Part shown: one piece after another, positions 2,525-19,498 of the stretch | Position numbering within the stretch: position 1 is the first letter of the stretch | How the letters are laid out: every line of letters begins with the position of its first letter | Assembly: GCF_003627755.1 (NCBI RefSeq) | Contig: NZ_CP032695.1 | Span: 248,001-312,000 of the forward strand | DNA: 64,000 bases | Direction of reading: 5' to 3' | DNA from: Rhizobium jaguaris | GTDB lineage: Bacteria > Pseudomonadota > Alphaproteobacteria > Rhizobiales > Rhizobiaceae | Position numbers and translations under genes: made by a program | Notes under the pieces: model-generated | Database searches by the model: none | The model's input: only the letters and a program-made list of their open reading frames with translations | Told to the model about the DNA's origin: nothing

Positions 2525-3478
2525 TCAGCGATAGGTCGGTAAAAGTGCCTGCCGCACCAGCTTGAGCCCATTTGCGATGTCGGCGACCGGATCTGGCGCG
2601 GCATCTAGCTCGAGAATGGCCCAGCCCTTGTAGCCGCGGTCGCGCAACAGCCTGATCCAGCCCGGCCAATCGACACGGCCGAGTCCGAAGCCGCAGAAAT
2701 AAGGGTGGTGGCGCTCATGAATATGTTCGTCGATCGGGGTGTCGGCCGGCATAGGTCCGAGCGCGTCCTTCCAGTGAGCGATGATCATGCGCTCGTGATG
2801 ACGCTCGACGACCTGCAGTGGATCGGAGCCGGCGACGATGATATGGGCTGTGTCCGGGCACATATGCAGGTAAGCCGGGTCGGTTAGCAGCATCAGCAGA
2901 TCGACATCGCGGGAGGCGGCGAAGATCGAGTGTGCCTCGGTGTGGAGGGCCAGCCGCACGCCTTTCGCATGAAGAGCGGCCCCGAGGCGATTGAGAAAAT
3001 CGGCAATCTTGCGCGCCTGCTCGAAATCGAAGAACCGCACCGGCTGGGCGCCAAGCGTCTGACGCAGCGGGGCGCCGATGACCATGATGTCACTGCCGCA
3101 GGCCTTGAGGAATTCGGCGTATTTCTCCGCCTTGTCGATGATTGCGGCCTGTGCGGATGCCTCGGTGAAATCGCCAGCCGCCTCGAGCTCGGCAAAGAAG
3201 CCGCTCGCCAGCGTCAGTCCGCGCCGGGAAAGCTCGGCGGCGAAGGCTTCGACCGAACCATAGGTCTTCGTCGCATCCTGCCAGTTGAACGGCGAAAAGG
3301 TCAGCTCTACGCCGGTGACGCCGGATGCCTCAACAGCATCAAGGATCTTGTCCCAAAAGGCGCGGGGTTGGCTGCGGGCGAAGGCGATAATGCCGTCGTA
3401 GTTCTCCACGCCCCAGAACCCGGGATGGAAGAAGGTGACGAGATCGACGCCGAAGCGAAGCCGTTCGGTTGATGTCAT
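2525..3478 (-). CDS. Sugar phosphate isomerase/epimerase (AP endonuclease family 2 TIM barrel)
   Basis: A 317-residue xylose-isomerase-like TIM-barrel protein. Recognisable strand-end motifs include GVELTFSPFNW, LALHTEAHS, MCPDTAHI, IAHWKDA and ILELDA, which hold the His/Asp/Glu side chains that usually bind the divalent metal. I chose the ATG at 3478 (MTSTERLRFGVDLVTF) because it starts the conserved barrel. The open frame continues upstream, but through the operator region. It is the first gene of the sugar operon and is divergent from lacI. It probably isomerises or epimerises the imported sugar or a derivative; the exact reaction is unknown. Confidence 0.8.
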   Translation of the reverse strand: MTSTERLRFGVDLVTFFHPGFWGVENYDGIIAFARSQPRAFWDKILDAVEASGVTGVELTFSPFNWQDATKTYGSVEAFAAELSRRGLTLASGFFAELEAAGDFTEASAQAAIIDKAEKYAEFLKACGSDIMVIGAPLRQTLGAQPVRFFDFEQARKIADFLNRLGAALHAKGVRLALHTEAHSIFAASRDVDLLMLLTDPAYLHMCPDTAHIIVAGSDPLQVVERHHERMIIAHWKDALGPMPADTPIDEHIHERHHPYFCGFGLGRVDWPGWIRLLRDRGYKGWAILELDAAPDPVADIANGLKLVRQALLPTYR

Positions 3479-3566
3479 GACGCTATCCGTTCTCTGGGCA
3501 TAGAGGATCGCTTGCTGAGGCGATGTCCGCAGCAAATAATCTCTAATAATTTCAATGCGCTGCAAT

Positions 3567-3582
3567 TGGCAATCGTTTGCCA
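3567..3582. promoter_or_regulatory. LacI-family operator, copy 1
   Basis: TGGCAATCGTTTGCCA is a 16-bp palindrome with one mismatch and the central CG typical of LacI/GalR operators. It lies between the sugar operon and the divergent lacI-type gene, 89 bp upstream of the isomerase start. Confidence 0.75.
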
Positions 3583-3625
3583 TGCTAAGATAGTAGCCAA
3601 GTCGTTTTTTTATGCAAGCGATTTT

Positions 3626-3641
3626 TGGCAAACGTTTGCTA
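3626..3641. promoter_or_regulatory. LacI-family operator, copy 2
   Basis: TGGCAAACGTTTGCTA contains the perfect 12-bp palindrome GCAAACGTTTGC at 3628-3639. Its centre is 59 bp from the centre of copy 1, which would let one repressor control both divergent promoters or form a short loop. Confidence 0.75.
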
Positions 3642-3698
3642 AAGGGCTGCGACTGCCGTAGCATCCCATGTAACAGGTATCGGGAAGGAACATAAAAA

Positions 3699-4790
3699 TT
3701 GAGAAAAAACAAAGGCATGCCGATGGAGGAGCAGTCAGGGCCGTTGATGGCCGATGTTGCGAGATTGGCAGGGGTGGCGATCTCAACGGTCAGCCGGGCA
3801 CTTGCCAATCCCGGTCGTGTTAACGAGAAGACACGTGCCAGGATCGATGCGGCTGCCAAGAAATTGGGCTACACGCCGAATGCCATGGCGCGCGGCCTGC
3901 GGGTCGGAAAATCTAATACGATCATGATCATTCTGCCCGGCTCGCTTTATTACGGCGTCTCCCAGGTCATTCCGCAAGTCCTGCAAAGCATCAACAAAGC
4001 CTTGCTGCAGAACGGCTATAACCTGATGATCGCCAATCTCGGCCGCGACGCGGAATCTGAGCGACATATTCTCGATCTCGCCTTCGGTGGCACCGTTCGA
4101 GGCGCCATCATTCTCTCGTCGAAGCTGCCGGAAGTCGACGGTCGGTCTCTTGCCAATGCTGGCTTGCCGACTATTTCCATGCTGCTCGACATGAGTGATG
4201 CCGGTGTGCCGAGCGTCGTCACCAACGATCGCGAGGCGGTGCGGGATGCGACGGCCGACCTTATCCATCTTGGCCATCGCCGCTTTCTCTATCTTGCTGG
4301 CCCAGAGAACAACTATCATGATCTCGAGCGTTTTAGCGGTGTCGTTGAGGCACTCCAGGAAGCAGGATTGTCAGAATCTGCGGTGGTTCGCTCGGGCGGC
4401 AATCTGGATTATCAGCACGGTTTTGACATCGGCCTGCAGGCGGCGAGCGATTTTGCCGCGCTTGCGGATAAACCTACAGCAGCCATTGCTACCAGCGATG
4501 ATATGGCAATTTCTTTCATGAGTCGGGTGCAGCGGATGGGACTGTCGATTCCGGGCGGCCTCTCGATCGTCTCCTTCGACGGTTCGCCCGTTTGTGCATT
4601 TTGCTCGCCGCCGCTTTCAACGATCGAGCAGCCGATGGAGGAGATGGGGCAGATGGCGGTCGCCATTCTGATGGCAGCCATTGATCGGCCGGAGCAAAAG
4701 CCGGAAATGCGAAATGTTATCCGCAGCCGGCTCATTCAGCGAGAGAGCGTCGCTGCCCCTGTGTGGCTTTTAGCTAACAATTTCAATTGA
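3699..4790 (+). CDS. LacI/GalR-family transcriptional regulator
   Basis: A 363-residue repressor-type protein. The N-terminal helix-turn-helix (DVARLAGVAISTVSRALANP, about residues 14-33) and the hinge (YTPNAMARGLRVGKSNTI) are followed by a periplasmic-binding-protein-like effector domain. The TTG start at 3699 is preferred because GGAAGGAA ends eight bases before it; the ATGs at 3717 and 3723 lack a good ribosome site. It is divergent from the sugar operon and flanked by two matching operators, so it very likely represses that operon and possibly itself in response to the imported sugar. Confidence 0.93.
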   Translation: MRKNKGMPMEEQSGPLMADVARLAGVAISTVSRALANPGRVNEKTRARIDAAAKKLGYTPNAMARGLRVGKSNTIMIILPGSLYYGVSQVIPQVLQSINKALLQNGYNLMIANLGRDAESERHILDLAFGGTVRGAIILSSKLPEVDGRSLANAGLPTISMLLDMSDAGVPSVVTNDREAVRDATADLIHLGHRRFLYLAGPENNYHDLERFSGVVEALQEAGLSESAVVRSGGNLDYQHGFDIGLQAASDFAALADKPTAAIATSDDMAISFMSRVQRMGLSIPGGLSIVSFDGSPVCAFCSPPLSTIEQPMEEMGQMAVAILMAAIDRPEQKPEMRNVIRSRLIQRESVAAPVWLLANNFN

Positions 4791-4858: not shown

Positions 4859-5929
4859 TCAAAGCCCTGAGGCTTTGGTGAGATTGACGCGAAAGCGGTC
4901 ACGGCGGCGCTGGTATTTGCGGGTCATTTCCGCGCTGGCATGGCCGAGCTGTTTCTGCACGTAGCGCTCGTCGACCTCGGCGGAGGAGGCGAGGCCGGCG
5001 CGCAGCGAGTGACCCGAAAATTTCTCCGCTCGCTCCGGTTCGCTGAGGTCGCCCCTGACGCCGGCCGCGAGCGCCGTCTTCTTGACAAGACGAGCGACCT
5101 CGCGATCGTTCAGCCGATCCGGCCCAACATCCTTGCCTTCACCCGTCACCCTGCGGAAGAGAGGACCCTTGGCAATCCGCGCGAACTTGATCCAGGTCTC
5201 GACGGCGACAACCGGGCAGGTCGCATCGGACGAGCCGCGGCCGATCTCGACCTCGCGCCATCCGGTCTTGCCGCGCAGGGTGACGAGCAGGCCCTTGTCA
5301 AGGATCTCGAGCCAGCCGCGCCCGTCCTCGGTCTGGTCGCGGCCGAGGTCGAGCCCAACGATCTCGGAGCGGCGCAGGCCGCCGGCAAAGCCGATCAGCA
5401 GCATCGCCCGATCGCGCAGGCCGCGCAGGCTGCCGCGATCCAGGGTTTCGAGCATGGCGATCAGTTGCTCCGGCAGCACCGCTTCCTTCTGGCGGGGTGG
5501 GGTGGCGTGGGTGTTGCGGATACCGGCAAGAACGGTGGCAATATGGCGATCCTTTCGATCGATCGGCATGCCGCGTTGCGTGTAGTTCCAGGTGAGGGCG
5601 GACAGCCGCCGTTCGATGGTCGACACAGAGTTGGCCTTCATACCACGTTCGGCGGTGCCGGACGCACAAGCGGTGATGTAGAGGCCGACGATTTGTGGAT
5701 CGGCTGGAAGGGGCGTCAGGTTCGAGCGCCGACACCAGGCGGAAAAATGCTTCCAGTCGCTGGCATAGGCGCGGCGTGTGTTGGCGGAGCTGGCCGCCTC
5801 GACATAGCCGCGCGCGCGATCGGTGAGATCTTGCAGATGACCCGGTAGGCCGGACGCCGGCTGCGGGGCAGGGGAGGGCGGAGCCTTCGGCAGCTCCGTC
5901 TCAAGAACGATTTCGCCGCTATTCTTCAT
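4859..5929 (-). CDS. Tyrosine recombinase (XerC/D-like site-specific integrase)
   Basis: A 356-residue phage-integrase-family recombinase. The N-terminal SAM-like core-binding domain covers about residues 35-140, and the catalytic domain follows. All catalytic residues are visible: R186 (GGLRRSE), K221 (RGKTG), H307 and R310 (HSLR), H330 (LGHAS) and nucleophile Y339. The ATG overlaps the vapC stop by four bases (ATGA), so it is the third gene of a vapB-vapC-int operon. A palindrome with dif/lox architecture lies about 0.8 kb upstream at 6724-6752 and is the obvious candidate target. Likely role: resolving plasmid multimers or site-specific integration. Confidence 0.92.
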   Translation of the reverse strand: MKNSGEIVLETELPKAPPSPAPQPASGLPGHLQDLTDRARGYVEAASSANTRRAYASDWKHFSAWCRRSNLTPLPADPQIVGLYITACASGTAERGMKANSVSTIERRLSALTWNYTQRGMPIDRKDRHIATVLAGIRNTHATPPRQKEAVLPEQLIAMLETLDRGSLRGLRDRAMLLIGFAGGLRRSEIVGLDLGRDQTEDGRGWLEILDKGLLVTLRGKTGWREVEIGRGSSDATCPVVAVETWIKFARIAKGPLFRRVTGEGKDVGPDRLNDREVARLVKKTALAAGVRGDLSEPERAEKFSGHSLRAGLASSAEVDERYVQKQLGHASAEMTRKYQRRRDRFRVNLTKASGL

Positions 5930-6312
5930 GCCGCCTCGACATCTGTCTGTTTGAAGTCGTTCCCCTTGAAGAGCAGCGGCTCGCCGGTCAGCGCGGCGAG
6001 GGCATAGGAGAAGCAGTCGCCGTAATTCAGGCCGGCAGGATGGCGACCCTTGCCGTAGCGGCGCCAGGCCCGGCGGGCCTGGTCGGCATGCTCGGAGGTC
6101 ACCGCAACGGCCTCCAGATTGGTCTTGTGCAACCAGAGATCGAGTTCTGCTCCGCCTGCCTCGCCGAAGCGCCCCTCGATGACCATCGCGGCTTCGACGA
6201 GCGTTGCCGCCGAAATCAGCCGGATGGGATCGTCGGCAATGCGTTCGCTGTAGTAGAGGGCATCCGGTTCATTGAAAAAGATCGCGACGATCGCTGACGT
6301 ATCGATCACCAT
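5926..6312 (-). CDS. vapC: PIN-domain ribonuclease toxin, VapC family
   Basis: A 128-residue PIN-domain protein, the normal VapC length. Acidic metal-binding residues are seen at D4 (MVIDTSA), E40 (TLVEA) and D99 (LNYGDC), the usual order for PIN nucleases, which cleave tRNA or rRNA. It starts in a TGATG overlap with vapB and ends in an ATGA overlap with the recombinase gene. It should be neutralised by the upstream VapB and stabilise the replicon by post-segregational killing. Confidence 0.92.
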   Translation of the reverse strand: MVIDTSAIVAIFFNEPDALYYSERIADDPIRLISAATLVEAAMVIEGRFGEAGGAELDLWLHKTNLEAVAVTSEHADQARRAWRRYGKGRHPAGLNYGDCFSYALAALTGEPLLFKGNDFKQTDVEAA

Positions 6313-6566
6313 CAGTTCGGAATACCGTTTTCGTCGTAACCGATGATTTCATCCGGACTGCGATCATCGAGAACCGGCAGAGCGCTCAAGCGTCGCCGCA
6401 TCGCCTCCATGTCGTCGAGGAGGGCAGCCTTCTTCGCTTGCGATCCCATACGCTTGAGGCGCTCTTCCAGCGCGCGCCGCGTCGCGATGGTGATGGTTTC
6501 GCCGGTGCGCGCAGCGAGTGCGCGCGCGAGCTTCTCCGTCTCGGGGTCTTTGATGCTCAGCGCCAT
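6312..6566 (-). CDS. vapB: VapB-type antitoxin (Rv0623/PSK-like)
   Basis: An 84-residue protein starting MALSIKDPETEKLARALA, the N-terminal pattern of the VapB/PSK transcription-factor family paired with PIN toxins. The first half would bind DNA as a dimer and the C-terminal tail would block VapC. It is the first gene of the vapB-vapC-int operon and is preceded by an AT-rich promoter region flanked by inverted repeats, suggesting conditional autoregulation of the whole operon, including the recombinase. Confidence 0.9.
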   Translation of the reverse strand: MALSIKDPETEKLARALAARTGETITIATRRALEERLKRMGSQAKKAALLDDMEAMRRRLSALPVLDDRSPDEIIGYDENGIPN

Positions 6567-6567
6567 T

Positions 6568-6632
6568 GCAGGTGTCCAGGTTCCTTGATATATATAATCT
6601 ACCTAATGACCTGCGACGCAGGCGACACCTGC
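6568..6632. promoter_or_regulatory. vapB promoter region with inverted repeats (putative VapB/VapBC operator)
   Basis: GCAGGTGTC at 6568-6576 is repeated exactly inverted as GACACCTGC at 6624-6632. Between them lie the AT-rich core TATATATAATC (about 6590-6600) and a short palindrome CTGCG-A-CGCAG at 6611-6621. This arrangement directly upstream of the antitoxin start suggests an autoregulatory operator around the promoter. Confidence 0.5.
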
Positions 6633-6723
6633 GGACGCGAATTCTGGCGACGCTCAGCCCGGCAAGCATGCGCTAACGGGGTTGAGGACCGCGAAAACGG
6701 CCATTCTCTATATAAAACACAAT

Positions 6724-6752
6724 ACGTCCGATAAGGCAAGATTATCGGACGT
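6724..6752. other. dif/lox-like core recombination site (putative target of the adjacent tyrosine recombinase)
   Basis: Two perfect 11-bp inverted arms, ACGTCCGATAA (6724-6734) and TTATCGGACGT (6742-6752), are separated by the asymmetric 7-bp spacer GGCAAGA. Arms of 11 bp ending ATAA and beginning TTAT around a 6-8 bp spacer are the layout of Xer dif sites and other tyrosine-recombinase cores. It lies between the divergent vapBC-int and DUF1403-scpB operons. Function is inferred; a regulator-binding palindrome is the alternative. Confidence 0.55.
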
Positions 6753-6827
6753 TTTCATCCACCGACGGGCGCGGCGGTTTCAACGGTAATATATAGCCTA
6801 AAGCGCCGCCGCGTGTTAGCCTTGGAT

Positions 6828-7763
6828 ATGGCTCCGCGCGCACGAATCATACCCGATCCACCCGCAAGCTACCCGCCGGTCCCCGGCTGGGCGCGCCTTC
6901 CATCCGCGGGCGAAGTCCATGACGACGCGGCCTATTTCGCTGGTGCGGCGCTCGCGGCCCTGCATCCGGCGGCTTGTGATGCGCACCCGCTTGGAATTCT
7001 TTGGCGCCAACGTCTGGCGCTGACTTGCGCGGCCGTGCTGACACGGCAGCAAGGGCGCCCGGAAGCGGAGGCCGCGCTGCGCGATTACTGGTATCTGACG
7101 CCGGCCGGCGGCGATCCCGGTCCCACGGGCCGGCTGCTCGGCGCCTTCCGTGCCCTTGGCGATCCGCGCGCCCTGCGCCCGGAGCAATGGGCGGCGCGCC
7201 TGCCGGCCTTGTTTGAGCTTGCCGCCGGCACCGCCTTGACGGCAGCTCTGGAGATGGCCGCCCATCAAGTCCGCGGGCAGGGTGATGCGGTGCGAGCGGC
7301 GGCCGTGACCGCGCTGGACGTCACGCGACGCCGGCCGGATGCCCGGCCGCTGGCCATGTGGCTGGCGGACGCGGTGCTCGCCAAACGTCTTGGCTGGCCG
7401 GCGCCCGCATCGCTGTTGTCGAGCGCCCTGCGGCCCGCCGACTGGCGGGCGCTGCGGGAGGGCAGGGCAGAGGCGTGGATCGAAGGCTGCCATTTGGCGT
7501 ATGCGCGCAGTGCCGCTGCAAGCCTCGATCTTTATGCGGATCTTTCTCGTAGGATGCTGCGTCTGCTCACCGTGGCGCCACAGTTACGCGGCAAGGAGGC
7601 CGACACAATGGTGGCGATCCTAATCAGGGAGGATGCGCAGCCGGCGAAAACCGGCCAGACGACCAGCGACCGATCAAGCCGGCGGCTGTTCGACCGCCTG
7701 GTGGCGCTCGGCGGCGCACGCGAACTGACAGGACGGCCGACCTTCCGGCTCTACGGGCTCTAA
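6828..7763 (+). CDS. DUF1403 family protein
   Basis: A protein of about 311 residues, rich in Ala, Arg and Leu. It matches what I know of DUF1403, including the stretch DARPLAMWLADAVLAKRLGWP in the middle. It has no signal peptide or membrane span. I use the ATG at 6828; a GTG at 6813 is in frame and neither has a clear ribosome site. Its stop is one base before the scpB ATG, so the two are surely cotranscribed. Function is unknown; repeated association with ScpB-like proteins and recombinases suggests a role in plasmid segregation or topology. Confidence 0.8.
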   Translation: MAPRARIIPDPPASYPPVPGWARLPSAGEVHDDAAYFAGAALAALHPAACDAHPLGILWRQRLALTCAAVLTRQQGRPEAEAALRDYWYLTPAGGDPGPTGRLLGAFRALGDPRALRPEQWAARLPALFELAAGTALTAALEMAAHQVRGQGDAVRAAAVTALDVTRRRPDARPLAMWLADAVLAKRLGWPAPASLLSSALRPADWRALREGRAEAWIEGCHLAYARSAAASLDLYADLSRRMLRLLTVAPQLRGKEADTMVAILIREDAQPAKTGQTTSDRSSRRLFDRLVALGGARELTGRPTFRLYGL

Positions 7764-7764
7764 C

Positions 7765-8439
7765 ATGGCACGACGCGCACAACCCACCGCCCCACTCGAC
7801 ATCGAGCTCGAAGAGCTGCCGGCGGAGCTGCGCTGGCGCGAATGGATGGGGAGGGTCGAGGCGATGATTTTCGCCAACGCCGAGCCGGTGTCGCGCGAGA
7901 CACTGGTCCGTCTGGTCGGGCGGAACTGCAGCATCGATTTGCTGATCGACGACATTCGCCACGAGCCGCGCGACCGGCCCTACGAACTCGTTGCGGTCGC
8001 CGGCGGCTGGCAGCATCGCACCCGCACGCGATTCGTCGAAGCCATCCGCGGCGTGACGGATCTTGAACCGCTAGTCCGGCCGCTGTCACAGGCCGATCTG
8101 CTGGTGCTGGCGATCGTAGCTTATCATCAGCCGATTACCCGCGGCGAAATCTCGAAGATCACCGGCAAGGAGGTCAGCCGCGATACGATCGCCCATCTGC
8201 GGTCGCTCGACTTCGTGTCTTCCGGTCCGCGCAGCCCGCAGCCGGGCGCGCCCTATACGCTGGTCACCACGAGGATCTTCCTGTCGCATTTTGGGCTCGA
8301 GAGTTTGCGTGACCTGCCGGATTTCGAGGCGCTTCAGGATGCCGGGTTGCTCAGCAAGGGCAGGTTGCTCGATGACGAGATCCCTATAGCCTCAGATGAG
8401 CAGGATGAAGCGATTGATCGGGATGCCGGCGACGATTAG
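7765..8439 (+). CDS. scpB: SMC–Scp complex subunit ScpB-like protein
   Basis: A 224-residue ScpB-family protein made of two winged-helix domains: first about residues 25-105 (MIFANAEPVSRETLVRLVG), second about 110-190 (VLAIVAYHQPITRGEISKITG and the GAPYTLVTT wing). In the kleisin/ScpB/SMC complex ScpB stabilises the kleisin during chromosome segregation. Here it is a plasmid-type copy beside a recombinase and dif-like site and directly after DUF1403, without SMC or ScpA. It may recruit host SMC-ScpA or work with DUF1403. The acidic tail is normal for the family. A decayed second copy lies at 12268-12485. Confidence 0.9.
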   Translation: MARRAQPTAPLDIELEELPAELRWREWMGRVEAMIFANAEPVSRETLVRLVGRNCSIDLLIDDIRHEPRDRPYELVAVAGGWQHRTRTRFVEAIRGVTDLEPLVRPLSQADLLVLAIVAYHQPITRGEISKITGKEVSRDTIAHLRSLDFVSSGPRSPQPGAPYTLVTTRIFLSHFGLESLRDLPDFEALQDAGLLSKGRLLDDEIPIASDEQDEAIDRDAGDD

Positions 8440-8518: not shown

Positions 8519-9730
8519 TTATTCAGAAGCGGGCGTGGCCACGCTCCGCGCACTGCGCCGGCCGAACAAACCAAGGAGGATGGATCCGGCCACACCCGCG
8601 AGGACGGATCCGGCAAGGATACCAATTTTGACTTTGTCCTGAAGAGCGGGGTCCTCGAAAGCCAGCAGACCGATGAACAGGCTCATGGTGAAGCCGATAC
8701 CGCACAGAAGAGCGGTTCCAACCATTTGTCCCCAACTTGCCTGGGCGGGCAGGTCCGTAAGATCGAGTTTCACCAACACCGCAACAGTGCCGAGCACGCC
8801 GATGAGCTTTCCAAGGACAAGCCCAACAGCAACACCGAGGGTGAGAGGTTCCGCGAGGATGGAGAGGGACGTGCCGGCAAAGGATACGCCGGCATTCGCG
8901 AAGCCGAAGATCGGGACGATGGCAAAGGCGACGGGTTTATGAAGGCGGTGCTCCAGCCTATGCAACGGCGATTCATGATGTGAGGCCTCAGGCGTGCCGG
9001 GTGTTCTCTTGAGGGGGATCGTCAATGCAAGCATGACTCCCGCCAACGTAGCATGGATGCCAGATGCGAAGACGAGGATCCACAAAGCGATGCCGAGGGC
9101 CAGGTATGGCCACAGCGCCTTGACACCCATGCGGTTGAAGATGATCAGATTGCCGATCACGATCGCCGCCCCGGCAAGAGCCAGAACATTGAGCTTGGCC
9201 GTGTAGAACAGCGCGATGACAATGACGGCACCGAGGTCGTCGATGATCGCCAGCGCAGCGAGGAATATCTTGAGCGATGTCGGCACGCGTCGACCGAAGA
9301 GCGAGATCACGCCCAGGGCGAATGCGATGTCCGTGGCAGTTGGGATTGCCCAGCCCTGCAATGCTGCCTCATGCCCGCGGTTGAAGACGACGTAGATCAG
9401 CGCCGGTACGAGCATACCGCCCGCAGCGGCGGCGCCCGGCAGAATCCGCCGGCTCCATGTCGAAAGCTGCCCGTCCAGCATCTCGCGCTTGATCTCCAAG
9501 CCGACGAGCAGGAAAAAAACGCTCATCAGCGCGTCATTGATCCAGTGCTGAAGGCTCAACGGCCCGACGTAGACATCGAGAATATGGAAATAGGCATCGT
9601 CGGCCGGAGAGTTGGCGACGATGATGGCGAGCACTGCAATTGCCATCAGGACAATACCGCCCGATGCCTCGTTATCCAGGAAGTGGCGAAGGGTGGACTG
9701 AATGCGGCCTGTCATTTGCGTCGAAGACAT
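8519..9730 (-). CDS. nhaA: Na+/H+ antiporter NhaA
   Basis: A 403-residue inner-membrane antiporter that exchanges cytoplasmic Na+ or Li+ for periplasmic protons. Family signatures are visible in order: SGGIVLMAIAVLAIIVANSP (span 1), FFLLVGLEIKREML, GWAIPTATDIAFALGV and the paired aspartates in AIIDDLGAVIVIALFY that bind the ions. About eleven or twelve hydrophobic segments are seen. The start at 9730 (MSSTQMTGRIQ) gives normal NhaA length; the frame continues upstream without family similarity. It converges with scpB and has no evident operon partner. Confidence 0.95.
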   Translation of the reverse strand: MSSTQMTGRIQSTLRHFLDNEASGGIVLMAIAVLAIIVANSPADDAYFHILDVYVGPLSLQHWINDALMSVFFLLVGLEIKREMLDGQLSTWSRRILPGAAAAGGMLVPALIYVVFNRGHEAALQGWAIPTATDIAFALGVISLFGRRVPTSLKIFLAALAIIDDLGAVIVIALFYTAKLNVLALAGAAIVIGNLIIFNRMGVKALWPYLALGIALWILVFASGIHATLAGVMLALTIPLKRTPGTPEASHHESPLHRLEHRLHKPVAFAIVPIFGFANAGVSFAGTSLSILAEPLTLGVAVGLVLGKLIGVLGTVAVLVKLDLTDLPAQASWGQMVGTALLCGIGFTMSLFIGLLAFEDPALQDKVKIGILAGSVLAGVAGSILLGLFGRRSARSVATPASE

Positions 9731-10329
9731 GGGTTCGCGCTCCCGGTTGGAAGGTTGATCGAAGTCTCCGTCGATTTCGGGGAACCCGCAGCGCACGCAG
9801 CACACGCCGTAGAAAGCAAATAAGGCAACCGCCCCTGAATTTCCAGTGTCTATCCGGCTGATCTCCGCCAAACGTCAGACTTCAAATCTCGACCTCGCTT
9901 CGCGGAGCTGGAGAATTTGACGGACAAGGAACGTTCGGGTGGGAGGTGGCTTGAATAGAGGCTAACGTCAACCTCAGCCGTCCAGATGGCATAGCTGCAA
10001 TTGCTCGAAGACATTCTATGCTGCAACAGATTAAATCCATCACTCCCGGCCAAATCAGAGCGAGCGTCCCATCCCCCGTTCAAGATGACGGATGCAAAGC
10101 TCCTGCAGCGCCGATGCTTTGAGATCTAAGTCCGTAGGCCGCCGAGGCTCTAATCGCCGCCGGATGAAACTTCAGTGTCAGGTCAATGTTTGAAAGAGCA
10201 GCGGCCAAGCTATCTGTACGGGGCTGTGAGCCCTCAAAAAACAATTAGCTGCCATCGTGTGTTATCCTCATTCCCGCGCGGCAAGACACGGATTGAGAGG
10301 ATACGTGCCCACATTTCAAGGAAAATCTC
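9731..10329. other. 599-bp stretch without a recognisable gene
   Basis: No convincing coding frame was found between the divergently transcribed nhaA and cyclase genes. Short frames here are unrelated to anything I recognise. A small hairpin, GGGCT-GTG-AGCCC (10221-10233), is followed by an A run rather than a T run, so it is not a plus-strand terminator. The region presumably holds both promoters. Confidence 0.5.
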
Positions 10330-12255
10330 GTGCGCTGGTCTAAACCCTTAAGATTGCATCTTGGCGTCCTGGTCGTAGCATCGCTGCTTTGCACGTCGAT
10401 GCCCATCATTTGGATCGCATTCAGCCACGGAAGCGATGCTGCGGTCCATGCGGGCGTGCAGCAGATGCACCAGATGAGCTTGCGGTTGATCGAGGGATAC
10501 CGGAATACGCTGGAGGGAGGCAGTGAGGCGGCAGCGCTGGCATCGACTCTGCCGCAGCTCGTTTCCCCGCCGCCTCAAGATTTACAGGCAAAGCAAGAGT
10601 TCTTTCTGGAAGTTCTACGAAACGTCCCCAACGCGACCAGCATCTACGCGGGGTACCCGGACGGGTCGTACCTTCAGGTAATCAACACCGGGCAAAACTA
10701 TGTTCGCGAGACCCTCTCCGCGCCGAACCCCACAGCTTTCGCGATCAGAACGATCGCACGGAGGCAAAGGGTGGACGTCATATCGACGCTCCGGCTTCTC
10801 GACAATGAAGCAAGACCGATAGAGGAACGGCAGATCGAGGATGTATCGTATGATCCGCGGGAACGCCCGTGGTATCAAGCCGTAGTTCAAGACGGTGTGC
10901 CGGTTTCCATCGGACCCTATGTCGATCGAACGCTCGGTGCTCCGACCCTCACAATAGCTGCACCGATGAGGGACGATGGTCAGGTGGTCGTTGGCATCAA
11001 CGTTGTCCTGCAGACCGTCAGTCGCCTGCTGGACGCGCGGGAGATTTCGCCGCGTGCGCGAGCTTACATTATCGATGGTGGCGACAATATCGTGGCCCAT
11101 TCTGACCCAGCCATAATGACCAGGGTCCTCGGAACATGGTCGAGAAGCGCTGGCGCCCTTGCCGCGACAGCAAACCGTTTCGAGACGAGCCTCGAAACTG
11201 TGGCCAGGCTGCGGCGGGATCCCGCCTATGCAAGCGGCGGCCTGGCACGGGTTGATCTCGATGGCGAAAGCTATCTCGTGCAGATCACCCCCGTCAGCGT
11301 GTCGGGTCTGTTCACTGGGAGCGAGGCCGCAATCGTCGTGCCGCTGAACGATCTTGTGGCACAGGCCAATCGGCTGCTGGTGCGCAATCTCTTCATTGCC
11401 GCCGCCTTCGTAATCGCGGGTGTCGCTGCATCGGTAATGCTTTCACGTGTGATCGGCCGCTCTCTTCGTCAACTTGCGGACGATGCCCGGAAGATCGGCG
11501 ATCTGGACGTCGGCGAGAAAGGTGTGTCCCACTCCTGGATAACCGAGATAAACACGCTGGCGAAGGCGCTCGCGGCAAGCCGTCATGCTATCAGCCAATT
11601 TGCCCTCTATGTTCCGCGTGAAGTGGTTCGCCGGATCGTCAATCCTGCAGCAGGAACGGTCGTCAAGGCGAAGCGACAGGATGTGACCGCACTGTTCACG
11701 GATGTCCGCGATTTCACGACCATATCCGAGCAACATTCGCCCGAGGACGTGGTCGATATACTGTCCGGCTACTTCGAACTGTTGAATACCATCGCCGAGC
11801 ATCATGGTGGGACAGTCGTCCAGTATCTCGGCGACTCCATTTTCGTATTGTGGAACGCCCCTGTTCAAGATTCTCGACATGTCGAAAACGGCTGTCGATG
11901 CGCGCTTGCGATGAAAGCGGCGATTGACGACTTGAACAAAACCAATCGTATGCATGGCCGTCCAGAACTGTTCACGCGGTTTGGGTTGCACACCGGCCCA
12001 GCGGTCGTGGGGAGTTTCGGGGCGATTTCGCGTCAGCAGTACACCGCGATGGGCGATACGATCAATGTCGCGTCACGGCTGGAAGGATTGAACAAGGAAT
12101 TCAACACGTCGATCCTGGTGAGCGCGGCTATACACGATGTTGTTGCCGATCGCTTCGAACTTCGATCGCTCGGCATGGCCCAGGTAAAGGGGCGCTCCGA
12201 GAAGGTCAATATATGGGAACTTATTGGGGAAAGCCGCGGCTATGCGGTGCGCTGA
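10330..12255 (+). CDS. Membrane-bound class III adenylate/guanylate cyclase with Cache sensor and HAMP
   Basis: A 641-residue protein: N-terminal membrane span (about 9-35), a periplasmic double-Cache-like sensor (about 40-340; DGVPVSIGPYVDRTLGAPTLTIAAPM), second span (about 346-370), a HAMP-like segment and a C-terminal class III cyclase domain (about 450-630). Metal-binding aspartates D458 and D502 (FTDVRDF, LGDSIF) and the N-x3-R motif in INVASRLE are present. The usual base-selecting lysine four residues before D502 is glutamine (Q498-YLGD), so nucleotide choice is uncertain. The GTG start is preceded by AAGGA. It presumably makes cAMP or cGMP in response to a periplasmic ligand. Confidence 0.9.
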   Translation: MRWSKPLRLHLGVLVVASLLCTSMPIIWIAFSHGSDAAVHAGVQQMHQMSLRLIEGYRNTLEGGSEAAALASTLPQLVSPPPQDLQAKQEFFLEVLRNVPNATSIYAGYPDGSYLQVINTGQNYVRETLSAPNPTAFAIRTIARRQRVDVISTLRLLDNEARPIEERQIEDVSYDPRERPWYQAVVQDGVPVSIGPYVDRTLGAPTLTIAAPMRDDGQVVVGINVVLQTVSRLLDAREISPRARAYIIDGGDNIVAHSDPAIMTRVLGTWSRSAGALAATANRFETSLETVARLRRDPAYASGGLARVDLDGESYLVQITPVSVSGLFTGSEAAIVVPLNDLVAQANRLLVRNLFIAAAFVIAGVAASVMLSRVIGRSLRQLADDARKIGDLDVGEKGVSHSWITEINTLAKALAASRHAISQFALYVPREVVRRIVNPAAGTVVKAKRQDVTALFTDVRDFTTISEQHSPEDVVDILSGYFELLNTIAEHHGGTVVQYLGDSIFVLWNAPVQDSRHVENGCRCALAMKAAIDDLNKTNRMHGRPELFTRFGLHTGPAVVGSFGAISRQQYTAMGDTINVASRLEGLNKEFNTSILVSAAIHDVVADRFELRSLGMAQVKGRSEKVNIWELIGESRGYAVR

Positions 12256-12267
12256 TGACCTGAATTC

Positions 12268-12485
12268 CTGTCGTCGCTCGATCCTGCGGCGTTGCCAGCG
12301 CTGCAAGTTCAACCCGACGGCGGTGCGCCCTACACCTATGTGACAACGAAGCATTTCCTGTCGGCATTCGGGTCGGAAACGCTGCAAATTTGCCCGACAT
12401 CGAACGATTGGAGGATGCCGGGCCGCTCAGCCGGCAGGCGTTCGAGCCGGGGGGAGAGGTGGAAAACACGCTGGGGGAGGACTGA
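12268..12485 (+). pseudogene. scpB-like remnant (C-terminal part, frameshifted)
   Basis: Frame 1 from 12268 encodes GGAPYTYVTTKHFLSAFGSETL, closely matching the C-terminal winged helix of the intact ScpB at 7765-8439 (GAPYTLVTTRIFLSHFGLESL). At about 12387 the frame breaks. Reading on in the next frame gives LPDIERLEDAGPLSR and a stop at 12485, again matching the intact copy (LPDFEALQDAGLLSK). A one-base deletion explains this. Most of the gene upstream is missing and replaced by the cyclase gene. It is a relic of a second DUF1403/ScpB-type locus. Confidence 0.8.
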
Positions 12486-12570
12486 TTGTCAGATCGGCCG
12501 CGGCGCGGGGGACGCATGACCAGGGCCCGATCTCTCGATTGGACGCTGCGTCAACGTCTGTTTCGTGAAA

Positions 12571-13434
12571 TCAACCCTTTGTCTGACTTTGAGCACGGAC
12601 CTGTTGACGACCGAGAGCAAGCCAAAGAAGCCCTGCTACAATCTCAACCAAGTTACCAGGATTTGGGGGCCGGTCTTCAGGTTCAAATGCCAAGCCGATG
12701 ACCACGTGCTGTGTTCCCGGGCCCGTAACAGGCCAAAAATCAAAGCGTGAGGCATCAAACGGGTAGACACCTGCCGCAACCAACTTGCCAGTTGCCAGCG
12801 ATGAACGCGCCGCCTCCATCTCTATTTCGGTTGGCTGGATGGCACCGCTTCTGTCGACGAACTCCACGGCCGCGTCAGCCATCAGCATGATGATGACGGG
12901 CGCACCGAAGAGGGCCGCCAAGGCATCGGCAGCGACAGAAGCGATTGCCTTGGTATCCTCCGCGGCAGGAATGTCGTGGCTAAGAGTTTGCAGAATCCTC
13001 ATCTGCCGCTTGAGGAATGTTGCGTCATCTGCTGTTCGTCGAGCCATCGATGCAACGGCGCTCGCAATGCATCCAACGACGAAAAGCAATCCGATCGCCC
13101 ATATGTTGGCTGGATCATTGACGATGAGAGTATAGCGCGGCTCCGTCAGAAAGTAGTTGTAGGCGAGAGCGCCGAGCACGGCCGAAAAGAGCGAGGGCCC
13201 CAATCCGAAAACAACAGCGGCGGTGACGACAGGCAGGACATAGATCAGCGACAGGTTTGGGATTGTCACTTCCCGGTCAAGCCCAATCGTCACTGCTGTT
13301 GCGAGCGCCGTCATGACAAAAGTCGCCAGATAGCGAGCCAAACTTGGAGCACTCGTCAGTCGCAGCATTTCCATGGGATCGGAGCTTTTGAGAAGCGTCC
13401 CATCGCTTCCTGATGTCGGGTCGTGCGCACTCAC
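12571..13434 (-). CDS. KdpD-like DUF4118 membrane protein with GAF-like domain, no kinase domain
   Basis: About 287 residues. Several hydrophobic segments at about residues 25-125 match the DUF4118 membrane domain of KdpD-type sensor kinases (LIYVLPVVTAAVVFGLGPSLFSAVLGALAYNYFL). A cytoplasmic GAF-like part follows and the protein ends where KdpD proteins would enter the histidine kinase. No H-box or ATPase motifs follow. I prefer the GTG at 13434 (MSAHDPTSG), preceded by AAGGGG; the frame extends 12 codons further. It may be a sensor lacking a kinase or a truncated kdpD-like gene. No kdpABC genes are nearby. Confidence 0.7.
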   Translation of the reverse strand: MSAHDPTSGSDGTLLKSSDPMEMLRLTSAPSLARYLATFVMTALATAVTIGLDREVTIPNLSLIYVLPVVTAAVVFGLGPSLFSAVLGALAYNYFLTEPRYTLIVNDPANIWAIGLLFVVGCIASAVASMARRTADDATFLKRQMRILQTLSHDIPAAEDTKAIASVAADALAALFGAPVIIMLMADAAVEFVDRSGAIQPTEIEMEAARSSLATGKLVAAGVYPFDASRFDFWPVTGPGTQHVVIGLAFEPEDRPPNPGNLVEIVAGLLWLALGRQQVRAQSQTKG

Positions 13435-13856
13435 AACGATATCCCCTTGTGCTAGGTCACCTGCTTTCACAGGCCAGCATTACACAGCACCAAACTGCGA
13501 CCGGGCGACGCTTTTCTGGATCAAAGCTTTGAACACCGGCGCCTACAGCAATTGGTTATCGCACATGCGCGTTGCATGCGGGAGTTGACGATATTATGGA
13601 GCGCGCAGCATAAAAATTCCATTCGTGCGGCAACGTAGTTTATCAAAATTTCATATATTCGAACGCCTTGCGCATCGACTGCTGCGACACCGCATCGGTA
13701 GGTCCTTTCCGGGTGTGTTGTTCAGTGCTCGTCTTGACTGGTTCGCCGATTGAACTCGCCCGCGCAACCGGCCACGCCGATGCAACTCTGTCCTTTCAGG
13801 CGCCGATCACTAGGGTCGCAGCCGCAATCTTGTCGTCGCCGCTCCGATCAACCCGA
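13435..13856. other. 422-bp stretch without a recognisable gene
   Basis: Both strands were read and no credible coding frame, repeat or RNA gene was recognised. The part at 13600-13680 is AT-rich (TATCAAAATTTCATATATTC) and could hold promoters. Confidence 0.4.
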
Positions 13857-14129
13857 TTAGCTACGGACGGCTTTCTCCGCCTGGGACGGGTCATACGCAT
13901 AAACGAGATCAGGCGCGACGATCCATTCGCCGGATCTGAGCACTTCTACATCGAGACGGCCCTGGGCATCGCGAAGCGCCAATCCCACAAATCGATAGGA
14001 TTTGCCGTCGCTGTCGCGAACCCTTTCCCGCACTACCTTGCGCCCGATTCTGCATGCGACCGCACCCTCGAAGACCACGGGATCTAACATGAAGTATTCG
14101 AATGGAAATCTGGCGCTGACCGTCTTCAT
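13857..14129 (-). CDS. Small hypothetical protein (90 aa)
   Basis: An uninterrupted 90-codon frame beginning MKTVSARFPFEYFMLDP, with an alternating beta-strand-like composition and basic central part (RIGRKVVRERVRDSDGK). No signal peptide, membrane span or known motif is visible. The frame on the opposite strand has less protein-like composition. I do not recognise the family and cannot assign a function. Confidence 0.5.
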   Translation of the reverse strand: MKTVSARFPFEYFMLDPVVFEGAVACRIGRKVVRERVRDSDGKSYRFVGLALRDAQGRLDVEVLRSGEWIVAPDLVYAYDPSQAEKAVRS

Positions 14130-14283
14130 TAATGCGACCTCAAGGGCCCTCTTGTTAGTTTAATCGTCGTCGCGCGAGAGTGAAGACGGCGCTAACGAGG
14201 ATTGACACTACCGCAGCGACCCTGAACGGAAGGAGCCGCAGGTGACAGTTCCGAAGACGAGGAAGTCGTTCGCCCCCGGACCT

Positions 14284-14556
14284 CTATCGCACGTCGTCGG
14301 TCGTCTGGTCGCGATCGATTTGCAGGACGATTTTCTCGGGACGCTCGCCCTCTTTTCGAATGAGGATGATAACGGTACATTTTTGCTTGCCAGGGCGGAA
14401 TGATAAAAGCCGACCGGATGTTTTCTCCAGGATTTTCTCAACCACCTGCGTGCAGTCTGCCAAGCGATCTGCTGCGAGCACTGGTCGCAGTGCCAATGCG
14501 TACGGCGAGACCGCCAGGACCGAAAACATCGCGAATGTGTTCCAGAATAAGGTCAT
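14284..14556 (-). CDS. Small hypothetical exported protein (90 aa)
   Basis: The first 29 residues (MTLFWNTFAMFSVLAVSPYALALRPVLA) look like a signal peptide with a cleavage site at VLA-AD. The mature part is about 60 residues with two cysteines (DCTQ and QKCTV) and the strand-like VIILIRKEG. It could be a small periplasmic protein with a disulphide. No family recognised. Confidence 0.45.
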   Translation of the reverse strand: MTLFWNTFAMFSVLAVSPYALALRPVLAADRLADCTQVVEKILEKTSGRLLSFRPGKQKCTVIILIRKEGERPEKIVLQIDRDQTTDDVR

Positions 14557-14641
14557 ATCAACATCAGGCCTTTGGCAGAAAAGATTGCAAGGCGTCCGGG
14601 AAGCTCATTTTCCAAGTCGAAGTAATCCTGCGCGGAGCTTC

Positions 14642-15049
14642 TCACGAGATTGGCGGCGTCTTAACGTTGGTCCGTGTGAGCGTTACGGTCCACTGGTCCG
14701 GACCGCCCCGGTCATAAACGTAAGCCGACCGGCCATCGCTTTCGGCAACCTTCAGCAGCATCACCACCCAGTCCGAAGCCGCCTCGCCAGGAAGTGTTTG
14801 CCTATCCAGCCACCGAATGAGGTAGGCCAGGTCACCAAAGCTCTTTTTGGGTTCGCAATGCAGTCGATAGAGTGCCCTGAGATAAACCGTCACGTCGCCC
14901 CTCTTCGCGTTATGTCGTAGCGGATCAAACAAGGTCCATATATGTTTCCCTCGGCGCCAGCCGCCGCCTCGTGGCTGGTGCGGAATCCGAAGGCGGCAAA
15001 GCTTACCAATGAATATTTTTTTGAGTTGGCTTGGCAGGGTCAAGGTCAT
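14642..15049 (-). CDS. Hypothetical protein; start uncertain
   Basis: A 135-codon frame whose 5' end overlaps the neighbouring small gene by 47 bases in another frame, so the true start is probably internal. The C-terminal half (WVVMLLKVAESDGRSAYVYDRGGPDQWTVTLTRT) looks protein-like. The basic N-terminal half may be spurious. No family recognised. Confidence 0.35.
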   Translation of the reverse strand: MTLTLPSQLKKIFIGKLCRLRIPHQPRGGGWRRGKHIWTLFDPLRHNAKRGDVTVYLRALYRLHCEPKKSFGDLAYLIRWLDRQTLPGEAASDWVVMLLKVAESDGRSAYVYDRGGPDQWTVTLTRTNVKTPPIS

Positions 15050-15290
15050 CTATTTGCGCTGCAATGCCGCTCAGCAAAACGTCACCGCCTTTGTTGATAA
15101 TTGTACCATGCACCGTTCCACGGATGATTGCGCTCGCACCCTTCTCCACCACGAGATCGTGGCCTATGTCTCCGTGCAATTCGAACTTTCTTCCGGACGG
15201 CACTGTCAGCGTTCCCGCGATCGATCCGAAGAAGCGTACATCGCGATCCAACACGATTGACCCATCGATATTGACATTGAGATCGTCCAA
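15003..15290 (-). CDS. Small bactofilin-like/polymer-forming beta-helical protein (95 aa)
   Basis: The 95-residue sequence is built of short repeating strand units: DGSIVLDRDVRFFGSIAG, LTVPSGRKFELHGDIG, HDLVVEKGASAIIRGTVHG and TIINKGGDVLLSGI. This periodic G/V/I pattern resembles the beta-helix of bactofilin-type cytoskeletal proteins, but it is shorter than classic bactofilins. It might form a small scaffold or be a partial gene. Assignment is from repeat pattern only. Confidence 0.5.
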   Translation of the reverse strand: MDDLNVNIDGSIVLDRDVRFFGSIAGTLTVPSGRKFELHGDIGHDLVVEKGASAIIRGTVHGTIINKGGDVLLSGIAAQIDDLDPAKPTQKNIHW

Positions 15291-15423
15291 CTGATGATCC
15301 TTTCTGTCGCCAAGATTTGGACTATGGTTCGCGAGCGCAGCGAGTGAGGAAACAGCCTATCCCGCCCGAACATCCGGCGCTGCAGGCCCGCGAACCTTCT
15401 CCCAATGTCGACACAGTAAAAAT

Positions 15424-15440
15424 ATATCATTGAATGATAT
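15424..15440. promoter_or_regulatory. MarR-type operator, site 1 (upstream of marR)
   Basis: ATATCAT-TGA-ATGATAT is a perfect 7-3-7 palindrome directly upstream of the marR ribosome site (AAAGGG), in a position to repress marR. The same palindrome recurs at 16954, 18800 and, imperfectly, 24076; every copy is followed by AAA. Confidence 0.75.
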
Positions 15441-15459
15441 AAATAAAGGGAATTGCGGA

Positions 15460-15930
15460 ATGCCCACTGGAAAGCGGCTCAGACGTCTCACATCGAATCC
15501 ATCCTTGACCGGCGGTTCGCTCGAGCCCGCCGTTTACGAAGGCCTTGCTGGCATGAGGCTTGCCATGCGGCGCTTTCTCTCATTCAGCGAGGCAGCAGTT
15601 TCGGAGGCGGGCGTCACCTCCCAGCAATACCAGACGTTATTGGTGATCAAAACCGCCCCCGGAAGCCAGATCATGGTGCGCGAGCTCGCCGAGCAGATGC
15701 TCGTTCAACACCATGGTGCAGTTCAGCTCATTGACAGGCTAGTTGCGGCGGGCCTGGTGCTGCGCGTACCTTCGGACCAGGACAAACGCAGCGTGCTTGT
15801 CGCTCTTACATCTGACGGAGAAGAGTTGATTGAACGCCTTGCCAGGATCCATCTGGAAGGGATATTGGCAAATGAGCGGCTGCTTGTTGAATCTCTTAAA
15901 AAGCTCAGACGCTTGGAAAGATTGAGCTGA
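15460..15930 (+). CDS. MarR-family transcriptional regulator
   Basis: A winged-helix regulator of 156 residues from the ATG at 15460, which has AAAGGG nine bases upstream. A TTG further upstream lies inside the operator and is unlikely. Helices resemble MarR proteins: AGVTSQQYQTLLVIKTAPG, MVRELAEQMLVQHHGAVQLIDRLVAAGLVLR (recognition helix) and the wing SDQDKRSVLVALTSDGEEL. It is preceded by a perfect palindrome found at three more promoters in the next 9 kb, suggesting autoregulation and control of a small local regulon, probably relieved by a small aromatic or antibiotic-like ligand. Confidence 0.9.
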   Translation: MPTGKRLRRLTSNPSLTGGSLEPAVYEGLAGMRLAMRRFLSFSEAAVSEAGVTSQQYQTLLVIKTAPGSQIMVRELAEQMLVQHHGAVQLIDRLVAAGLVLRVPSDQDKRSVLVALTSDGEELIERLARIHLEGILANERLLVESLKKLRRLERLS

Positions 15931-16002
15931 CGCGAATTCAGATTTGCAGCCATGACTTCCCTTTCCGCTCCTCCTCAACGGCCTCGTTGGAATTTTGTCG
16001 TT

Positions 16003-16317
16003 TCAGTGAAGTCTGGCTTCCGGAAGCTCATCGTTCTCGGAAAGCAGGCGACAGACTTCTTCGGCCATCAATCGAGCCGCATTGGCAACTGCCGGAGAAA
16101 TTGGTTCGCCTCGGCGAGCGTCACGGCCGATGTTGATGAGCCCCCTGAGTTCCGCGACATTCTCGATGAAGCCATCCAGTTTGTTTCGTATCTCAGCCGG
16201 CAACCTGCCAGCGTTGTCTAATTTAATCTCGCCGTATTCATCGAGCACGCCCTGTAATCGCAGCAGATGCTCGAGGTATGACGACAGGACGGCTATCGCT
16301 TGACGCTCATTCATCAC
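16003..16317 (-). CDS. Hypothetical protein (104 aa, mostly helical)
   Basis: A 104-residue frame beginning MMNERQAIAVLSSYLEHLLRLQGVLDEYGEIK. It is rich in Leu, Glu and Arg with heptad-like spacing and no membrane span, suggesting a small helical cytosolic protein. It lies 39 bp downstream of the response-regulator gene on the same strand, so the two may be cotranscribed. No family recognised. Confidence 0.55.
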   Translation of the reverse strand: MMNERQAIAVLSSYLEHLLRLQGVLDEYGEIKLDNAGRLPAEIRNKLDGFIENVAELRGLINIGRDARRGEPISPAVANAARLMAEEVCRLLSENDELPEARLH

Positions 16318-16356
16318 GCCTCCAGTTCTTCGCTCGAGCCGCCGAGGCTTGCTAGC

Positions 16357-16761
16357 CTAGTTTGGTGCGAACAATCGTAGGGCAGATGGAGGCGAGCCGA
16401 ACTTTCCATTCCTCCGGCTCTGCAGAAACTCCAGAAGCATCTGAATTACGATCGGAGTAACGGGTTTTGAAACAACGCCGACAATGCCGGAAATGCCACT
16501 GTGCACGGCTTCCGGGTTGCCGGTGACCATAACGACGGCGATGCCGAACTCATCGGAAAGATATCGGCCGATACGGGGACCGGTTTCGCCATCGCTCAGA
16601 TTTACATCCACCAAGGCAAAATCGGAGTGCGGCGCCAACCGTCTTGCACTGTCGAAATCATGGGCAATCCCCGATGTCGGATACCCCAATTCGTGGATGG
16701 TCTCCTGAAGGTCAATGGCGATCAGGGGGTTATCCTCGACAATGAGGACGCGGTGCTTCAT
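16357..16761 (-). CDS. Single-domain response regulator (CheY-like receiver)
   Basis: 134 residues from MKHRVLIVEDNPL. The receiver signature is complete: acidic pair E9-D10, phosphoacceptor D52 (FALVDVNLSD), T80 (MVTGNP) and K99 (VVSKP). There is no output domain, as in rhizobial FixJ-N/CheY-like single-domain regulators. The ATG at 16761 is preferred over 16779 because it opens the conserved fold. No cognate kinase is adjacent; it should be phosphorylated by a histidine kinase elsewhere. Confidence 0.9.
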   Translation of the reverse strand: MKHRVLIVEDNPLIAIDLQETIHELGYPTSGIAHDFDSARRLAPHSDFALVDVNLSDGETGPRIGRYLSDEFGIAVVMVTGNPEAVHSGISGIVGVVSKPVTPIVIQMLLEFLQSRRNGKFGSPPSALRLFAPN

Positions 16762-16953
16762 TGAATGTCTCCGCCACAAAATAGCCTAAGTTTGGAACTT
16801 GGCATTATCTCGCCATAATGCAACACAATTTCTTCTTTTCGCGCGATGGGAAATTATATTTCCCCGATTTTCGGAAATTTTACCAGAAATATCGCAACGG
16901 CAAGCGCTTATTCAGTCAATGTTCAGAATCATGTAATTTTTTGATTTTTCGCA

Positions 16954-16970
16954 ATATCATGCCATGATAT
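16954..16970. promoter_or_regulatory. MarR-type operator, site 2 (upstream of flavin monooxygenase)
   Basis: ATATCAT-GCC-ATGATAT is a perfect 7-3-7 palindrome, identical in both arms to the one before marR, located 156 bp before the monooxygenase ATG. The remainder of the 364-bp gap between the response regulator and this gene (16762-17125) holds no gene I recognise. Confidence 0.72.
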
Positions 16971-17125
16971 AAAAATACAGCAAAAATCAGCTCGGACTGA
17001 GCAAGCTGCCGCTTATCGTACTGGGCTGAGTTCGCGCCAATTGGACTAGATAAACTGAAGCGTCCGGAAGCGTGAGGACTGGGCAGCCAGAACCAACAGG
17101 CCTGACATGTACGAAAAGGTGGTGC

Positions 17126-18310: not shown

Positions 18311-18312
18311 GG

Positions 18313-18697: not shown

Positions 18698-18799
18698 ACG
18701 CTCCTCATTCGACGGCATCTCGTGCGGGGTGGATGTCCGCTAGCCATTTTGAGGCCAATGAAAGCCCGCACGATCCCAGGCTGATCATGAACGGACAAT

Positions 18800-18816
18800 A
18801 TATCATGACATGATAT
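18800..18816. promoter_or_regulatory. MarR-type operator, site 3 (upstream of ialB-like gene)
   Basis: ATATCAT-GAC-ATGATAT, a perfect 7-3-7 palindrome with the same arms as sites 1 and 2, 173 bp before the ialB-like start and followed by AAAA. Confidence 0.7.
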
Positions 18817-19401: not shown

Positions 19402-19409
19402 CCTCCAAA
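19402..19409. repeat. IS66 target-site duplication, left copy (CCTCCAAA)
   Basis: CCTCCAAA directly before the left inverted repeat; the identical octamer is at 22105-22112 after the right one. Eight bases is the standard IS66 duplication length. Confidence 0.9.
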
Positions 19410-19498
19410 GTAAGCGCCGTCTCCGCCCCATTGGATTGGCTGTATTTTGAGGCTTGCTGCGTGTGCGAGAAGGTTTCCAGGACTATCTGGAGATTGGC

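Follow-up and report, generated by a model that had tools for sequence, protein, structure and literature searches.

A putative Cre/TnpS-like resolution module with DUF1403 and ScpB genes at one end of a tniABQ transposon of Rhizobium jaguaris

Introduction

The Cre/loxP system of phage P1 employs one recombinase and one symmetric site for the resolution of plasmid dimers, as we propose for the module described here. The loxP site has an 8-bp center and 13-bp arms, compared to 7 and 11 bp in our site, and dif shares with our site the layout ATAA-center-TTAT. The module lies in a stretch of 64,000 nucleotides of Rhizobium jaguaris (contig NZ_CP032695.1, positions 248,001 to 312,000, forward strand), which we refer to as the window. 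A block of 3.6 kb comprises int, which encodes a tyrosine recombinase (Int), a vapBC-type pair, a palindrome, and the genes for DUF1403 and a ScpB-like protein. From sequence comparisons, this block is probably a Cre/TnpS-like site-specific resolution module, in which DUF1403 and ScpB would be helpers and which would resolve plasmid dimers or transposon cointegrates. Cre is the closest solved relative of Int (E 3.4e-8); the presence of helpers distinguishes the module from Cre/loxP.

A similar layout is found in the TnpS/TnpT/rst systems of Tn4651 and TnXax1, whose transposase differs from the tni transposase of the window. In these systems, a tyrosine recombinase and a divergent helper flank core and accessory inverted repeats, according to the accessible part of PMC7157771. 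The window likewise has a divergent gene with core and accessory repeats in between, and Int is related to the pWW0 integrase that we took as TnpS (hhalign, 99%). The helper differs: DUF1403 is unrelated to the divergent pWW0 gene, which we took as tnpT and which encodes a KfrA_N domain and a coiled coil, and it is accompanied by ScpB. DUF1403 was rejected as a TnpT homologue, as the comparison with that gene gave 0.1% by hhalign and nothing significant by BLASTP. Because its helper is unrelated to TnpT and paired with ScpB, the module would represent a new form of tyrosine-recombinase resolution system.

The second point of comparison is the Tn5053/Tn402 family. Its members are organized as tniABQ-res-tniR, with 25-bp ends and 5-bp direct repeats, and res/TniR resolves the cointegrates (PMC7765201, in the portion available). 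The element in the window has TniA, TniB, TniQ, 25-bp inverted ends, and a 5-bp duplication too. However, its resolution block consists of a tyrosine recombinase, a site, DUF1403, and ScpB, with no match to a serine-recombinase model inside the element. On the Sinorhizobium meliloti plasmid pSmeLPU88b, a Cre-like xerD and a toxin-antitoxin (TA) pair lie downstream of repABC, an arrangement common to rhizobial plasmids (PMC10194956, accessible part). Plasmids bearing the module can similarly have a recombinase and TA genes behind repABC. We compared the two by description only, and the accessible description contains no recombination site, DUF1403, ScpB, or transposon. Famint18, again set beside our module by description, groups plasmid tyrosine recombinases, nearly all from plant-interacting bacteria, and a resolution function was unsupported there (PMC3414803, accessible part).

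A preliminary note made from the window sequence alone (the earlier note) had read the block as a plasmid dimer-resolution and segregation cassette and knew of no description of such a combined system. We found none for int-site-DUF1403-scpB either, and no mention of DUF1403, in the literature searched, which left most subscription journals outside. The accessible part of PMC12153318 holds nothing on the module.

Results and Discussion

All the components that the earlier note had listed were recovered at the same coordinates by Pfam searches and a palindrome scan. The int gene (4859-5929, minus strand) matches PF00589 with 54.5 bits. Alignment verified the full R-K-H-R-H-Y set previously read in Int; this set is complete in 17 of 18 aligned family members, the exception being the Int of locus L026, where R replaces K and the Y position is gapped. 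L026 has no site next to its Int, and with the catalytic tyrosine gone, it retains a half site.

Upstream of int lies a perfect 11-7-11 palindrome, ACGTCCGATAA-GGCAAGA-TTATCGGACGT (6724-6752), our putative core recombination site. With up to 3 mismatches allowed, it occurs once in the window, compared to none in 100 shuffles, and once in the whole 8.0-Mb genome. The palindrome had been described as dif-like. This holds for its layout, but Int missed the XerC and XerD equivalog cut-offs (56.3 of 335 and 51.8 of 330 bits), and the module has one recombinase, unlike XerCD/dif. A search for the chromosomal dif with an E. coli-like pattern gave one weak genome match (contig C3, one mismatch) and was uninformative.

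To compare the site between genomes, we assembled 102 loci: the window, 21 plasmid loci (one of them, L028, without annotation), and, from GTDB genomes, the 80 best of at least 564 DUF1403 relatives. Gene matches were scored with profile models built for this analysis. Since the loci were picked for DUF1403, they do not amount to a survey of Int. A site score of 18 to 23 was obtained in 77 loci and of 5 to 16 in the other 25. The maximum in shuffled sequence (600 bp before DUF1403; one shuffle for each of the 102 regions) was 16; the score was built on the inner core of the first loci and is biased towards such sites. The consensus, AYGNNCGATAA-TGCAANN-TTATCGNNCRT, mostly lies some 75 bp upstream of where DUF1403 starts. 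Locus L025, outside the main scoring result, has a site that separates int from the TA genes. Across the 77 loci the two arms co-vary: position 4 is A/A in 40 and T/T in 27, and position 5 is C/C in 39 and A/A in 18. A strict site pattern was present in 3 of 101 genomes of the order (the R. jaguaris genome included), all 3 being among the 6 with DUF1403 above the cut-off; the other 3 lacked the pattern. At an E value of 0.001, DUF1403 was found in 8 of the 101 genomes, and a reversed-pattern control gave 0 matches. These comparisons support a recombinase-site-like behavior of the palindrome.

We consider it very improbable that Int serves to integrate a mobile island, with the palindrome as its attachment site. 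Such a role would suit a tyrosine recombinase and the junctions seen at the site in some pairs of loci (see below), but one symmetric site lies beside int, with no second genome copy, and the element that moved here has tni-type ends.

The site is linked to its putative recombinase. Among the 94 loci with at least 1,500 bp before DUF1403 (8 contig-edge loci being excluded), Int and site occur together in 68, Int alone in 6, the site alone in 8, and neither in 12 (Fisher P = 2.7e-6, not corrected for kinship). ScpB directly follows DUF1403 in 101 of the 102 loci, and the exception, L093, stops at the contig end. The commonest order is repABC, int (minus strand), site, DUF1403 (plus), scpB (plus). 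The conserved neighborhood that the earlier note proposed to look for on rhizobial plasmids was borne out by blastn, tblastn, and profile models, and it extends to other alphaproteobacterial plasmids. Some part of the block matches 1,059 plasmid records by blastn, many of them partially; 5 records contain 80% or more of the block at a single place. DUF1403 relatives were detected by tblastn in 547 of 72,556 plasmid records; in 459, the match spans 80% or more of the protein. The 12 loci with DUF1403-ScpB and neither Int nor site nearby weigh against the resolution reading, as DUF1403-ScpB may do another job there. A family Int was found elsewhere in the genome in all 10 searched of these 12. 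One alphaproteobacterial module (L088) is on a contig filed under a cyanobacterial metagenome-assembled genome, probably as a contaminant.

A second inverted repeat, GCGGCGGTTT...AAAGCGCCGC and variants, lies between the core site and DUF1403 and keeps its position in the 77 loci (in the window, left arm 6772-6780 and right arm 6800-6808). At the axis of this accessory repeat, 71% of cells pair, compared to no more than 41% at any of 12 other axes. Co-changing pairs include 48/84 (CG 33, GC 23), 49/83 (GC 49, TA 19), and 53/79 (GC 23, CG 12). The genome G056 separates the components: a core with an accessory-type repeat lies about 2.5 kb from int and close to repABC, and DUF1403-scpB is about 45 kb from the core, with no such repeat visible there. 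In our own reading, the left arm of this repeat is spaced as usual and the right arm is one base off. That the repeat stays by the core suggests that it belongs to the site. Several loci that have neither Int nor core retain the repeat beside DUF1403 (by eye), which suggests that it serves as an operator. Both may hold. A core and accessory repeat near repABC, with DUF1403-scpB about 45 kb off on the same contig, were seen at L119:7619 and L120:7251.

The operator function could be the main one. Under this explanation, DUF1403-ScpB would bind the repeat at its own promoter and silence int, the TA genes, and itself, outside any recombination complex. A -10-like TAgccT (6817-6822, plus strand), of which T, A, and the last T are conserved, lies 5 bp before the DUF1403 ATG and may mark a leaderless promoter; the repeat would then overlie the presumed -35 region. 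The operator-like persistence of the repeat and a PF11972 helix-turn-helix match in 36 of 62 sequences, at E values up to 1, point the same way. We regard a mainly regulatory role as possible but doubtful, given that the G056 repeat remains with the core at a distance from DUF1403 and that, in the 77 loci, the repeat holds the same place with respect to the core.

In the resolution mechanism that we favor, Int would act as the single recombinase on the 29-bp core site. DUF1403 would bind the accessory repeat, about 20 bp past the core, by means of its C-terminal winged helix, and DUF1403 and ScpB would make the reaction take place between two sites in one molecule and/or control their own operon. 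On repABC plasmids, the module would turn dimers into monomers. In the window, it would replace tniR/res and resolve the cointegrates that arise from replicative transposition, and VapBC would be a passenger that the int transcription unit picked up. Such a mechanism would offer a function for DUF1403 and a reason for a ScpB gene to ride beside it on plasmids, and it provides a candidate recombination site. It would also be a candidate answer to how rhizobia and roseobacters keep their large repABC plasmids free of dimers.

The copy in the window is one end of a 23,136-bp tniABQ (Tn5053/Tn402-like) transposon (4762-27897), a context overlooked in the earlier note. A terminal-repeat scan identified a left inverted repeat, TGTGGCTTTTAGCTAACAATTTCAA (4762-4786, plus strand), and a right one, TGTGGCTTTTACTTTGCCATTTCAA (27873-27897, minus strand), identical at 20 of 25 positions. 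They are bordered by perfectly matching copies of a 5-bp target duplication, CCCTG (4757-4761 and 27898-27902). At the right end, all on the minus strand, are tniQ (24228-25259; PF06527), tniB (25256-26134; PF05621), and the transposase gene tniA (26141-27790; PF09299, with rve under its cut-off). The insertion point is the 3' end of a lacI gene. Joining the flanks with one CCCTG restores a lacI end that terminates in RESVAAPA*; the corresponding end in R. gallicum reads ...RESMTPPT* (by eye). The left flank (3000-4756) aligns over 1,748 to 1,757 of its 1,757 bases among the matches listed. No plasmid record matched the right flank over 80% of its length, and the matches listed are without its first kilobase.

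A model of five serine recombinases had no match between 4762 and 27897, so by position the int block fills the role of tniR/res. For the same reason we call the element a variant tniABQ transposon and not a standard Tn5053/Tn402 member; it would be a type of tniABQ transposon with a tyrosine-recombinase resolution end. The order end-int-site-DUF1403-scpB-tniQ-tniB-tniA-end recurs in four smaller elements of 6.5 to 7.1 kb (L013, L023, L029, and L100). Several points count against this reading. The alignment of the empty site is weak, extending 17 bp past the junction in R. gallicum and not at all in Rhizobium CCGE531; because it is so short, it is mainly the duplication and the restored lacI end that speak for an empty site. 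A perfect duplication is found in one of the five two-ended elements, that of the window; L100 has 4 of 5 bases, and L023, L029, and L013 have none. The ends of L013 are also poorly alike (12/25).

The transposon cargo (8519-24041; Pfam) includes an NhaA-type antiporter, a dCache adenylate/guanylate cyclase, a DUF4118 protein, a FAD-binding enzyme, an IS66 transposase, and a CLC chloride channel. A second short ScpB-like fragment (12310-12405; 34 bits) is perhaps the relic of another module.

Of 74 family loci, 11 have a transposon-type end at a distance of 99 to 123 bp past the int match. Thirteen had passed a loose pattern; L027 and L088 were dropped (7 edits, other distances), and L060 was kept despite 7 edits because it is similar to L100. 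Both ends were found in 5 of the 11, and the remaining loci have the int-side end only within the stretch examined. On a careful tree of 72 Ints, the transposon-borne members are scattered, and the transposon label requires 8 changes (bootstrap, 8-8), a number that holds without the TnpS row. Shuffled labels require 10.4 on average, and 8 of 500 shuffles were as low as 8. The module therefore seems to have been exchanged several times between tniABQ transposons and plasmid backbones, the direction being something that we can only infer. This suggests that plasmids and transposons exchange resolution systems. Five loci (L017, L030, L032, L091, and L099) have tni genes inserted between int and DUF1403, which fits the "res site hunter" behavior of such transposons; the ends of these insertions were looked for and not found.

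If Int recombines at the core, related loci might part company there. We made an ungapped, site-anchored comparison of 2,926 pairs of loci over 100 bp on each side. Mean identity was 35% to the left of the site and 47% to the right. The window and Rhizobium NXC24 are 100% identical to the left of and through the site and 41% identical to its right. Other broken pairs (left/right) are L017/L084 (100/56%), L034/L035 (45/100%), and L037/L038 (31/100%), the last with an inverted center. L037 (8909-8937) and L038 (2802-2830) are draft contigs of one Bradyrhizobium strain with a common right flank and opposite centers. Within 650 bp on either side, 14 pairs switch abruptly, 8 of them at offsets of -4 to 31.

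These junctions could have arisen without Int, by homologous exchange or as assembly joins. Homologous exchange that ends in conserved sequence could imitate them, and the site and the sequence to its right are conserved; L037 and L038 come from drafts of a single strain. Many close pairs are unbroken, for example, L073/L074 (100/92%) and L062/L078 (100/74%), and the right sides of six pairs that are 100% identical on the left grade from 92 through 74, 69, 68, and 56 to 41%. The switch pairs also share loci (L019, L034, L035, and L048), and the right flank is constrained. All of this weighs against Int as the cause. The NXC24 record, however, is complete, and it parts abruptly from the window. 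We judge an origin of the junctions in exchange or assembly rather unlikely.

The DUF1403 gene (6828-7763, plus strand; PF07183, 208.1 bits) most likely starts at the ATG at 6828 rather than at the GTG at 6813, because aligned relatives begin there; this start, too, had been overlooked. The protein is predicted to have a Fic-like fold and a C-terminal winged helix, without the Fic motif: HxFxxGN(G)R was absent from all 82 rows of two overlapping alignments and from all 120 homologues. The Fic assignment is open to objection, as it is a fold match only; the best Foldseek E value was 1.7e-3 (none at or below 0.001), and hhalign found no relation to one Fic protein. A sequence search of solved structures gave nothing up to an E value of 10. 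In Paracoccus pAMI8, a Fic family gene (L012:7655-8758) comes right after scpB, beside DUF1403 with its predicted Fic-like fold.

The ScpB-like gene (7765-8439, plus strand) matches PF04079 with 123.4 bits (cut-off, 27.4), and its family profile matches the solved ScpB 3w6j (E 4.8e-22). It stays under the NCBIfam TIGR00281 equivalog cut-off (79.6 of 89.2 bits), and there is no ScpA among the five genes of the block. A bolder form of the resolution mechanism is speculative, and we think it improbable. DUF1403, a former Fic enzyme turned scaffold, would hold ScpB at the site, and ScpB would bring the SMC-ScpA of the host. Loop extrusion would then pair the sites, so that Int cuts within one molecule only. 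Plasmid backbones and tniABQ transposons would have exchanged the kit repeatedly, the transposons hunting plasmid resolution sites and keeping them. If ScpB does recruit condensin, SMC complexes would be linked to site-specific recombination.

A PIN toxin gene of the vapC type (5926-6312, minus strand; PF01850, 70.9 bits) and its paired vapB-type antitoxin gene (6312-6566, minus strand; PF07704, 101.3 bits) identify the pair as VapBC by Pfam. The earlier note had counted vapBC as a co-inherited part of the block. Among 75 Int loci, a TA match lies between int and DUF1403 in 16, just beyond int in 24, at both places in 7, and at neither in 42, as counted with models that cover few TA families. 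The 42 loci argue against TA genes as a required part of the module, and vapBC is optional, a passenger. Tn3 transposons provide known cases of TA pairs adjoining res sites (PMC7157771, accessible part). Beside the window site and upstream of vapBC lies a putative -10 region of the int promoter followed by an ATG-GCC (6702-6716 for the two together, minus strand); the ATG-GCC resembles, by eye, the int start of L010. This apparent relic start suggests that vapBC may have been inserted between int and its promoter.

Together with the transposon context, the optional TA genes bear on the claim that recombinase, condensin accessory, and TA pair jointly act as the segregation cassette of the replicon. 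A RepA, RepB, or RepC match near the block in 62 of the 102 loci, within the stretch examined, favors this idea. In the window, however, the block is borne by a transposon and distant from the repC of its contig (module, C2:254859-256439; sole repC match, C2:2583634), and many Ints have no TA match nearby. We consider a joint segregation cassette unlikely, and for the window copy the claim that it is the plasmid's own does not stand; as a whole, the earlier interpretation is partly supported. Contigs C3 and C4 of genome G000 have two repC matches each, as if replicons had fused.

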